A stretch of 64,000 nt of DNA. It comes from Brevundimonas goettingensis. GTDB taxonomy: Bacteria > Pseudomonadota > Alphaproteobacteria > Caulobacterales > Caulobacteraceae. A program made the position numbers and the translations under genes. The notes under the pieces are model-generated. The model saw only the letters and a list, made by a program, of their open reading frames with translations. It was not told the origin of the DNA and did not search any database. Shown piece after piece: positions 14,858 through 62,077 of the stretch; position 1 is the stretch's first letter, and every line of letters starts with the position of its first letter. The stretch covers positions 3,581,001 through 3,645,000 of the forward strand of contig NZ_CP062222.1 of the NCBI RefSeq assembly GCF_017487405.1, in the 5' to 3' direction.

Positions 14858-17179
<2,322 letters not shown>

Positions 17180-20843: not shown

Positions 20844-21479
20844 ATGACCGTCTCACGCCGCGCTTTCGCGTTTGGAACCGCCGCCCTCGCGGGCCTCGCC
20901 GCCCTGCCGGCCGCCGCCCAGTCCGGGCTGTCCGCCGAGGATCGCGCTACCCTGCAAACGGCCCAGACCTATCTGCAGAACCTGACCTCGGCCCAGGGGA
21001 CCTTCGTCGAGACCGGTCCCAACGGCCAGCAGCGCCGCGGCCGCTTCTATCTGCAGCGTCCGGGCAAGATGCGTTTCGAATACACCGACCCGGCCGGCCT
21101 GCTGGTCGTCTCGGACGGCTATAACGTCAAACGTTACGACCCGCGTCTGGAGGTCTTCCGCCAGGTGCCGCTGGGCGCCACCCCTCTGTCGACCTTCCTC
21201 GCCCGCAACGTCCGTCTGGATCAGGGTGTGCGCATCGACCGGGTGACCCGCATGCCCTCCGGCGCCTTCGCCATCACCGCGCGAGACGGCTCGCGCCCCA
21301 ACGACGGCTCGGTGATTCTGGCCTTCGCCGGCAGCCCGCTCCGGTTGCAGGAATGGACCATCACCGACGCGCAAGGGAGCCGCACCCGTACGCAGCTGAC
21401 GACGCTGCAGCCGGCGTCCGGCCTCGCCGCCAGCCTGTTCCAGCTGCGCGACCCGACGCGTCGTCCCGGTCGGAACTAG
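20844..21479 (+). CDS. lolA: Outer-membrane lipoprotein carrier protein LolA
   Basis: Periplasmic shuttle that takes lipoproteins from LolCDE to the outer membrane. 211 aa. Signs of the family: helix LQTAQTYLQNLTSAQGTFVE, then GRFYLQRPGKMRFEYTDP, LLVVSDGYNVKRYDP and TPLSTFLA. The signal peptide contains SRRAFAFG, close to a twin-arginine motif, then LAGLAALPAAAQSG with an AAAQ cleavage site; Tat export is possible but not certain. GGAGG lies about a dozen bases before the ATG. A terminator stands 206 bases downstream, beyond a candidate small RNA. Confidence 0.93.
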   Translation: MTVSRRAFAFGTAALAGLAALPAAAQSGLSAEDRATLQTAQTYLQNLTSAQGTFVETGPNGQQRRGRFYLQRPGKMRFEYTDPAGLLVVSDGYNVKRYDPRLEVFRQVPLGATPLSTFLARNVRLDQGVRIDRVTRMPSGAFAITARDGSRPNDGSVILAFAGSPLRLQEWTITDAQGSRTRTQLTTLQPASGLAASLFQLRDPTRRPGRN

Positions 21480-21574
21480 TCTCAACTGACACGCGAGCGT
21501 GACGGTTGGGAGGGTAGGCGGATGATTCGCTGATCGTGGTTCGACCGCAACGGCAAAGCTTCATGGTTTAGTGT

Positions 21575-21603
21575 TTGACCTTTTTTTGCAGGCGTGACAC
21601 TTT
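21575..21603 (+). promoter_or_regulatory. Possible promoter for the small RNA candidate
   Basis: TTGACC (21575-21580), 17-base spacer containing a run of seven T, then CACTTT (21598-21603). The -35 is good and the -10 poor. Transcription would begin near 21609. Confidence 0.4.
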
Positions 21604-21608
21604 GAGCA

Positions 21609-21715
21609 CAGAGCGACGGCGGTCGCTCTTCCGCGTCGGACGTCATCCCCTCCCGATAGCGGCGTGTGAGAGAGAAAAACTTCAGCGCCCGGCACGCTCG
21701 TGCCGGGCGTTTTTT
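21609..21715 (+). ncRNA. Candidate trans-acting small RNA between lolA and xth
   Basis: About 107 bases. A perfect 5' hairpin GAGCGAC-ggcg-GTCGCTC (21611-21628) is followed by ~57 mostly unpaired bases containing CCCCTCCC (21647-21654), complementary to GGAGG ribosome sites, and then a strong intrinsic terminator with six T. This layout matches C-rich-seed sRNAs of alphaproteobacteria. Caulobacter GsrN, a general-stress sRNA that binds the katG leader through a C-rich loop, has similar size and design, but identity is not established and I see no EcfG-type promoter. It could instead be just a long lolA 3' UTR. Confidence 0.5.
21686..21715 (+). terminator. Strong intrinsic terminator between lolA and xth
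   Basis: Perfect ten-base stem CGCCCGGCAC / GTGCCGGGCG with a GCTC loop and TTTTTT. The strongest terminator in the window; it ends lolA or the candidate small RNA. Confidence 0.9.
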
Positions 21716-21732: not shown

Positions 21733-22530
21733 ATGACCCTGCGCATCGCCACCTGGAACATCAACTCCGTCCGCCTCCGCATCGATCAGGTCGCCCGGTT
21801 CGTCGCCGAGAGCGGGACCGACGTCCTGTGCCTGCAGGAGATCAAATGCCTGGAGGACCAGTTCCCCCGGAACGCCTTCGCCGAGATGGGCCTGCCGTAC
21901 CTGCGCATCGCCGGTCAGAAGGGCTGGCACGGCGTGGCCATCGCCAGCCGCCGCCCGATTACCGACGCGCCCCGGCTCGATATCTGCCGCAACAAGCACG
22001 CCCGCGTCGTCTCGGCGGTGGTCGAGGGCGTCGAGATCCAGAATTTCTACATCCCCGCCGGCGGCGACCTGCCGGACCGCGAGCTGAACGAGAAATTCGA
22101 TCACAAGATGGACTATTACGAGCGGCTGACGGCCGAGATGGCCACGCGCGACCGCTCGAAGCCTCTGCTGCTCGCCGGTGATTTCAACATCGCCCCCAAT
22201 GAGTTCGACGTCTGGAACCACCGTTATATGTCCAAGGTGGTCAGCCATACGCCGGGCGAGGTCGAGACCCTGTACCGGCTCCAGAACGCGGGCGGCTTCA
22301 ACGACGTGGTCCGCGACGCCTTCCCCGAGCCGCAGAAGCTGGCCAGCTGGTGGAGCTATCGCGCCCAGGATTTCCGCAAGTCCAACCGCGGCCTGCGCCT
22401 CGACCACCTGTGGACCTCGCCCGGCCTGACGCCGAAGGTCGTCCCCGGCAGCGCCAAGATCCACGACACGGTCCGCGAATGGGACCAGCCTTCGGACCAC
22501 TGCCCGATCACGGTCGATCTGGACGTCTAG
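21733..22530 (+). CDS. xth: Exodeoxyribonuclease III
   Basis: AP endonuclease and 3'-5' exonuclease of base-excision repair. 265 aa, normal length. Metal and catalytic residues are in the expected order: RIATWNINSVR (Asn), LCLQEIKC (Glu), FYIPAGGDLPD (Tyr/Asp), LLAGDFNIAP (Asp, Asn), GLRLDHLWTS (Asp) and QPSDHCPI (Asp-His). The start is 18 bases after the preceding terminator T-run. Its stop codon overlaps the convergent MocR gene by four bases. Confidence 0.97.
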   Translation: MTLRIATWNINSVRLRIDQVARFVAESGTDVLCLQEIKCLEDQFPRNAFAEMGLPYLRIAGQKGWHGVAIASRRPITDAPRLDICRNKHARVVSAVVEGVEIQNFYIPAGGDLPDRELNEKFDHKMDYYERLTAEMATRDRSKPLLLAGDFNIAPNEFDVWNHRYMSKVVSHTPGEVETLYRLQNAGGFNDVVRDAFPEPQKLASWWSYRAQDFRKSNRGLRLDHLWTSPGLTPKVVPGSAKIHDTVREWDQPSDHCPITVDLDV

Positions 22531-27649: not shown

Positions 27650-28063
27650 TTCCTACCCTTCAGACCCGGCTGAACCGGACCGTCAAACCCTGAACCGGCG
27701 TTTTCGCCGTGAACCCGACGATTAGACATCGTGGGTCCGCCCGGTCAACGCAACGTGGTCGCCTCATCCGGGTTCCGCGGACTCTATTCCGCCCCTGTGG
27801 CGCAAGCGTCACGGGAATGGGGCGGAAACCCGCACAGATGTTTCGCAAAGAGACTGCCGTCCGGAACAGGCCCTGCGGGAACCCCGGCTTTCGGTGCTGC
27901 AAAGATCAGCGTCGTCTTCGCCTTGTCATCGCCCCTTTTGGGCGTGTTATAGAGCGTCGCAGCGGCCCTCGCCCCTTGTGAAACAGGGGTCAGAGCTGTC
28001 GCGCCCGCGCTTTGTGCGTGTCACCCGCGGGTCCGGCGTCCAATCTGAACGGAGAATTCCTCG
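27650..28063. other. Non-coding gap, 414 bases, with a large hairpin
   Basis: Divergent gap between ntrZ and the DUF3576 gene. It holds a perfect nine-base stem TTCCGCCCC / GGGGCGGAA enclosing 23 bases (27787-27827), a small hairpin CGGCG-tttt-CGCCG (27696-27709), and a good promoter for the rightward gene. I see no protein-coding gene in it. Confidence 0.55.
27923..27952 (+). promoter_or_regulatory. Promoter for the DUF3576 lipoprotein gene
   Basis: TTGTCA (27923-27928), 18-base spacer, TTATAG (27947-27952), about 110 bases upstream of the ATG. The long leader could hold regulation, but I see no known riboswitch. Confidence 0.55.
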
Positions 28064-33076: not shown

Positions 33077-33288
33077 GAGATCGGCTCGGTCGGTGGTCGG
33101 GCGGGTAACCTGATCTAGGCGCTCGGCGCGCCGACGTCACCGCCGATCTCGCCGCGCCCCTCTCTTCCTTGTCCGTGCTCCATCGGATATCGTCGTGTTT
33201 CGGGCACATGCGGACGCCCGATCAGACGGCTCCCGTCCAAGCGCCGCTCCTTTCACCGCGCCACTGTTGTGCGGCATGGAGCCATGCA

Positions 33289-61851: not shown

Positions 61852-62077
61852 GCCGTAAAGGCCGCCCCTGTCATTGGGGAGTAGCCGCCCGCATCTCCAG
61901 CGGGGCTCGCGTCAACAGACTTCGGTTCGTCTCAGGACGCATCGATGGCGCGAGAGTCCAGTGGCCCTATCGCATCGCGCGCGGCGCTATGCTGCTTGAG
62001 GGCAGGACCTTTCGGTCCTCAAGTCGTGAGCCTCCGCGAGGCGAACGTAGGACCACAGGAATGGCAAGACCTTTGGC
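61852..62077 (+). ncRNA. yybP-ykoY-type manganese riboswitch
   Basis: Aptamer leader of the GDT1-family transporter. The conserved blocks are in order: closing helix GCCgtAAAGG (61852-61861) pairs with CCTTTGGC (62070-62077); GGGGAGTAGC (61876-61885); GTCAACA (61911-61917); and GGCAAGACC (62063-62071). These are the Mn2+-binding loops of yybP-ykoY RNAs. The middle insert (about 61930-62060) makes it ~226 nt, longer than most. An additional stem GGGGTCGT / ACGACCCC (62100-62142) just before the start may be the expression platform. Confidence 0.85.

Follow-up and report, generated by a model that had tools for sequence, protein, structure and literature searches.

A probable Brevundimonas ortholog of the Caulobacter small RNA RusT, with paired near-palindromes at its promoter and relatives in other Alphaproteobacteria

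In Caulobacter crescentus, the gene of the small RNA RusT (CCNA_R0199) is flanked by lolA (CCNA_03820) and xth (CCNA_03821) and lies on the plus strand (PMC11005374), and CCNA_R0199 is listed at 3987216 on the plus strand (PMC5988900). According to PMC11005374, RusT is 118 nt long and folds into four stem-loops, with a seed at nt 45-57 that includes C53. It is bound and stabilised by Hfq, and it is induced by zinc excess or iron chelation. The loop of its stem-loop 2 (SL2) pairs with the mRNAs of TonB-dependent receptors (TBDRs) and of OmpW, repressing them, and its promoter, PrusT, is occupied and repressed by NtrX in C. crescentus. Homologs from the genus Caulobacter are aligned in Figure 2A of that paper, and other Caulobacteraceae are mentioned. 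GsrN, another C-rich sRNA, is described as having a sigma-EcfG promoter and usually lies near phyR/nepR/ecfG in Caulobacteraceae.

The window, i.e. the whole stretch of 64,000 nucleotides from Brevundimonas goettingensis that was analysed, carries a RusT-type sRNA at 21610-21715, recognised from its fold and with the covariance models R1 and R2; its start was inferred at 21609-21612. The sRNA lies between the open reading frames of lolA (20844-21479) and xth (21733-22530), and all three genes, like the elements described below, are read from the plus strand. Several elements proposed in the initial annotation were found in place: the -35 element TTGACC at 21575-21580, part of a promoter that resembles the sigma-70 type (TTGAC precedes most relatives), an 8-bp 5' hairpin (SL1, 21610-21629), the C-rich motif CCCCTCCC at 21647-21654, and the U6 tract at 21710-21715, which ends an intrinsic terminator (21684-21715, stem 21684-21711). 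The stretch of about 57 unpaired bases that had been described between hairpin and terminator did not hold up, since a second hairpin is predicted at 21631-21662 and its 13-nt loop (21640-21652) contains most of CCCCTCCC. Two Caulobacter-like orthologs, L145 and L146, are predicted to form this hairpin as well. By the numbering published for RusT (PMC11005374), the seed GUCAUCCCCUCCC at 21642-21654 is the equivalent of nt 45-57, and C53 corresponds to 21650. A purine-rich linker (21663-21683) stands at the place of the RusT SL3/Hfq site in the predicted fold and may serve in Hfq binding; SL3 itself is absent from this fold, which has three stem-loops.

The fold of the 107-nt RNA is predicted at -50.2 kcal/mol (z -3.3), and 1 of 200 shuffled sequences folded equally well. 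Covariation was seen at SL1, where 6 of 7 pairs carry two-sided changes among 13 sequences selected because they are equally long (0/500 shuffles), and at the terminator, where 8 of 10 pairs do so in 38 sequences. The motif CCC-N-UCCC is invariant across these 38 aligned sequences, an alignment that left out the located loci L011, L024 and L041, whose motifs vary. An automatic consensus fold over all 38 recovers the terminator only. Because SL1 covaries, the terminator changes on both sides and none of the 38 sequences departs from CCC-N-UCCC, the RNA is not a product of chance. The view of the initial annotation that this is a genuine sRNA is supported, and its C-rich recognition site is conserved. 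That the signal could reflect a fragment of the lolA 3' UTR, or a mere terminator between lolA and xth, is suggested by locus L044, in which a terminator-like hairpin is all that is left between the two genes. Such an origin is most improbable, given that the RNA has a conserved promoter of its own, a covarying 5' stem and a seed that is invariant in the 38 sequences, and that RusT is reported to be expressed in C. crescentus (PMC11005374). No Rfam family reached its gathering score in a scan of the lolA-xth RNA. Elsewhere in the window, a manganese riboswitch (yybP-ykoY, 61862-62009) and a chrB-b RNA (33200-33247) scored above their gathering scores.

The distribution of the sRNA in Caulobacteraceae was followed from the Xth protein, taking the best 80 of 468 loci found, from Caulobacteraceae and allied MAGs. 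The sRNA core was located in 67 of these 80 and, in addition, in L058 at a contig end. No core was found by pattern in 12 loci, 8 of which lack lolA in the fetched stretch. In L015, L017 and L021 the RNA is near lolA and xth lies about 1.1 kb downstream. At four loci (L044, L051, L055 and L072) lolA adjoins xth without a RusT core, and these appear to be losses. GC-rich palindromic repeats of the GGGCGCTAACGCTCGC...GAGCGC type were seen between the terminator and xth in L004, L014, L025 and L036, all Brevundimonas. Of 299 Caulobacteraceae genomes, 282 contain a match (E<=0.01) to model R1, which was built from 38 sequences including that of the window; its E-values are rough, and the weakest of the 282 matches may be due to chance. 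A second, weak R1 match (27.8 bits) is present in the genome of the window itself. The order lolA-sRNA-xth, whose conservation had been proposed as a check on the locus, was found by tblastn in all 37 of the best-scoring R1 loci tested.

Because locus, seed and numbering match those published for RusT, the RNA in the lolA-xth gap is identified as the Brevundimonas ortholog of RusT, with a probability of roughly 0.93. The gene lies between lolA and xth on their strand, and the conserved seed, with its C53 equivalent, sits in the loop of SL2. Homology to RusT-type RNAs was obtained with both covariance models, R1 having the window in its training set and R2 having been built with the family of the window excluded. 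For sequence comparisons, the genus group g22, which was taken to be Caulobacter, stands in for C. crescentus. The seven g22 loci, which were outside the R1 training set, score 65.7-80.6 bits with R1. The box CACGCATG is present in four of them and absent from the other three. With the A of CACGCATG chosen by us as the start of the RNA, nucleotide 53 is the last C of CCCC in 4/7 g22 loci, and the RNA measures 116-124 nt depending on where the U-tract is cut. Four stem-loops, as published for RusT, are predicted for L145 and L146, the only g22 loci that were folded.

The initial annotation had hypothesised instead that the RNA is GsrN, the sigma-EcfG-dependent sRNA that activates katG. The C-rich loop and the size of about 100 nt agree with this reading, as does the presence of katG, preceded by GGAGG, 6.7 kb from the sRNA. 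In C. crescentus, moreover, gsrN is itself reported far from the general stress response (GSR) locus. Against it, the GSR (nepR) locus of this genome lies 369 kb from the sRNA, and no sigma-EcfG promoter of the form GGAAC-N16/17-CGTT was found within 6 kb of the sRNA, the nearest in the window being at 27752-27776 on the minus strand. A better candidate for GsrN lies beside phyR (L192:100-226, minus strand; G000:C1:3232255-3232381). It has a GGAAC-N16-CGTT promoter followed by a long stem enclosing seven C (CCCCCCC) and a terminator (z -6.4). Model R1 gave no match to this phyR-linked RNA at E<=1, and R2 scored it at 14.2 bits, which is background, the best background match of R2 being 15.8. 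The pairing with katG that had been proposed fares no better: GGAGG at 14938-14942 is the ordinary Shine-Dalgarno sequence of katG, the computed complementarity is a 5-nt run, and katG takes place 38 when the 50 window genes are ordered by the energy of the duplex. katG was thus rejected as a target. With a separate GsrN-like RNA beside phyR, no sigma-EcfG promoter at the lolA-xth locus, and seed, locus and numbering that fit RusT, there is very little chance that the lolA-xth RNA is GsrN.

At the promoter of the RusT ortholog, a 16-bp near-palindrome of the form GTG-N10-CAC (GTGACACTTTGAGCAC, 21594-21609) covers the -10 region. Searching for the best site within about 40 positions, at least five of its six consensus letters were found in 64 of 68 sequences (the window plus 67 loci, of which L024 was placed by hand). 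A distal copy, GTGGTTCGACCGCAAC at 21536-21551, has 5/6 letters and lies 58 bp upstream of the proximal one. Such a second copy, 58-59 bp upstream, is present in 41 of 67 loci and in 28 of 39 after removal of similar upstream sequences, compared with at most 2/39 (mean 0.27) for any other two adjacent distances taken together. The distal copy is missing in 11 of the 39, including the Brevundimonas loci L004-L007, L009, L028 and L048.

The two near-palindromes are likely to be NtrX operators, as judged from comparison of sequences. In C. crescentus, NtrX ChIP peaks are reported both at PrusT and upstream of ntrYX (PMC11005374), and the exact site at PrusT is not named in the main-text passages of that paper. 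Of 29 ntrY loci (L162-L190), 22 have a GTKGM-N6-GNMAC-like motif in the 120 bp that precede ntrY, comprising 16 of 18 from the same genus and 6 of 11 from other families; as background, the motif turns up in 5.6% of windows taken at random and in 6% of shuffled sequences. The threshold was set after a first look at the data. The thirtieth fetched ntrY locus, L191, was left out because its start could not be placed. Binding of these sites by a regulator other than NtrX, at the promoter of what would still be a RusT ortholog, has to be weighed here. NtrX motifs published elsewhere read CAAN2-5TTG and GCAN9TGC; the sites seen here, GTKGC-N6-GCMAC, have a similar half-site in a different arrangement. 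In addition, the strict operator pattern gave 8 matches in the whole genome against 14 for a reversed control, i.e. no enrichment. In view of the two ChIP peaks and of the recurrence of the near-palindrome upstream of ntrY, also in other families, such a regulator appears rather unlikely, and NtrX is the preferred candidate.

Relatives of the RNA were also found beyond the family. In an order-wide search, R1 matched at E<=1e-4 in 93 of 150 genomes, 62 of them outside Caulobacteraceae, many of these 62 with scores at which a match is likely to be accidental. Twenty stretches were fetched from among the 31 top matches outside the family, and 17 of them contain a clear relative directly 3' of lolA; L272, L275 and L277 were spurious. 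The 17 relatives have a first stem around GCGUUGCCCCCCCGCU or close variants, a second with the CCCCUCCC seed in its loop, a third stem and then the terminator. They were used to build R2, which contains no sequence from the family of the window. R2 matches all 12 family sequences given to it (25.2-37.1 bits; best other match 15.8), and in the genome of the window it ranks the lolA-xth locus first (25.3 bits, next 17.3). Class-wide, R2 found matches in 14 of 289 genomes, from six further families, at 45.9-96.1 bits; in this search, run at E<=1e-4 with strict filters, the genome of the window and its relatives were missed. Of these 14 matches, 11 are preceded by lolA on their own strand at a distance of up to about 0.9 kb, which for 6 of them is no more than about 450 bp, and 8 have xth downstream; lolA was not found in the locus for the remaining 3.

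Together, these sequences form a set of 31 two-loop relatives (L258-L271, L273, L274, L276, L278-L291) from other alphaproteobacterial families and orders, mostly near lolA. Outside Caulobacteraceae, the RNA has one C-rich loop in SL1 (GCGUUGCCCCCCCGCUUGC) and another in SL2 (AUCCCCUCCC), both of them nearly invariant, along with covarying stems and a third stem-loop. Two-sided changes occur in 19 of 27 pairs and 96% of cells pair (0/500 shuffles), a count that is biased because 14 of the 31 were picked with a structure model. An Rfam 15 scan of 14 of the 31 returned sub-threshold matches only. Descent from the Rfam family ar7 was considered separately and is not supported, its cut-off being reached in 0 of 278 class genomes. 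A limited literature search brought up no description of this wider lolA-linked family. We lean towards the view that an ancient sRNA family of Alphaproteobacteria is associated with lolA and that RusT is its branch in Caulobacteraceae, reduced in length, where two NtrX sites at a constant spacing of 58-59 bp control the promoter. If so, a connection between an envelope two-component system and the composition of the outer membrane has been conserved for a long time.

The following mechanism can be envisaged for the Brevundimonas RNA. NtrX would grip two GTGGC-N6-GCCAC-like sites, the proximal of which covers the -10 region, and iron or envelope stress would lift this repression. Hfq would then load onto the RNA, and AUCCCCUCCC would block the translation of outer-membrane receptor mRNAs by pairing with their G-rich Shine-Dalgarno regions. 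The genome has 53 TBDR matches, and starts could be assigned for 51. The longest exact complementarity to CAUCCCCUCCCG averages 5.18 nt in TBDR leaders and 4.46 in window genes (p 0.0007), and GGGGA precedes the start in 18 of 51 receptors against 3 of 50 window genes; the rule for assigning starts favours Shine-Dalgarno-like sequence and was applied to both sets alike. The preference in run length is regarded as weak because 102 of 1000 shuffled seeds give an equally large TBDR difference. Duplex energies of the seed did not differ between the 51 TBDR leaders and the 50 window genes. The complementarity of the leaders thus fits RusT action without proving it, and the targets in Brevundimonas are weakly indicated from sequence.

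RusT itself is already known from Caulobacter, and its Brevundimonas member is new only at the level of the genus. With it, an experimentally studied sRNA is extended to Brevundimonas and a plausible misidentification as GsrN is corrected. The new parts are the pairing of sites at the promoter and the relatives across the class, both of which go beyond the descriptions found in a limited literature search. The paired operator makes the place at which NtrX binds PrusT testable; the relatives in other orders do the same for the idea that a C-rich sRNA linked to lolA has long regulated the envelope in Alphaproteobacteria.

Among known systems, RusT of C. crescentus shares with the window RNA its place and strand, the position of the seed within the SL2 loop and the terminator. 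The window RNA differs in being shorter (about 105 nt) and in having no predicted SL3. Compared with the Caulobacter-like orthologs L145 and L146, the seed, the second hairpin and the terminator are common, whereas SL1 is unlike theirs. GsrN (PMC5869019) is similar in C-rich loop and size and differs in promoter class, locus and fold. CcnA, which in the account of PMC8959179 carries CCCC in a loop and pairs with GGGG near start codons, has a comparable C-rich loop; its gene is reported at the origin of replication, unlike that of the lolA-xth RNA, and identity with CcnA was rejected by this reported gene place alone. The alphaproteobacterial sRNAs ar7 (RF02342) and ar14 (RF02344) match the relative L273 weakly, at 33.5 and 26.7 bits, and ar14 matches the window RNA weakly at 21.9 bits, all far under the gathering scores of 60 and 58.8 for ar7 and ar14, respectively.
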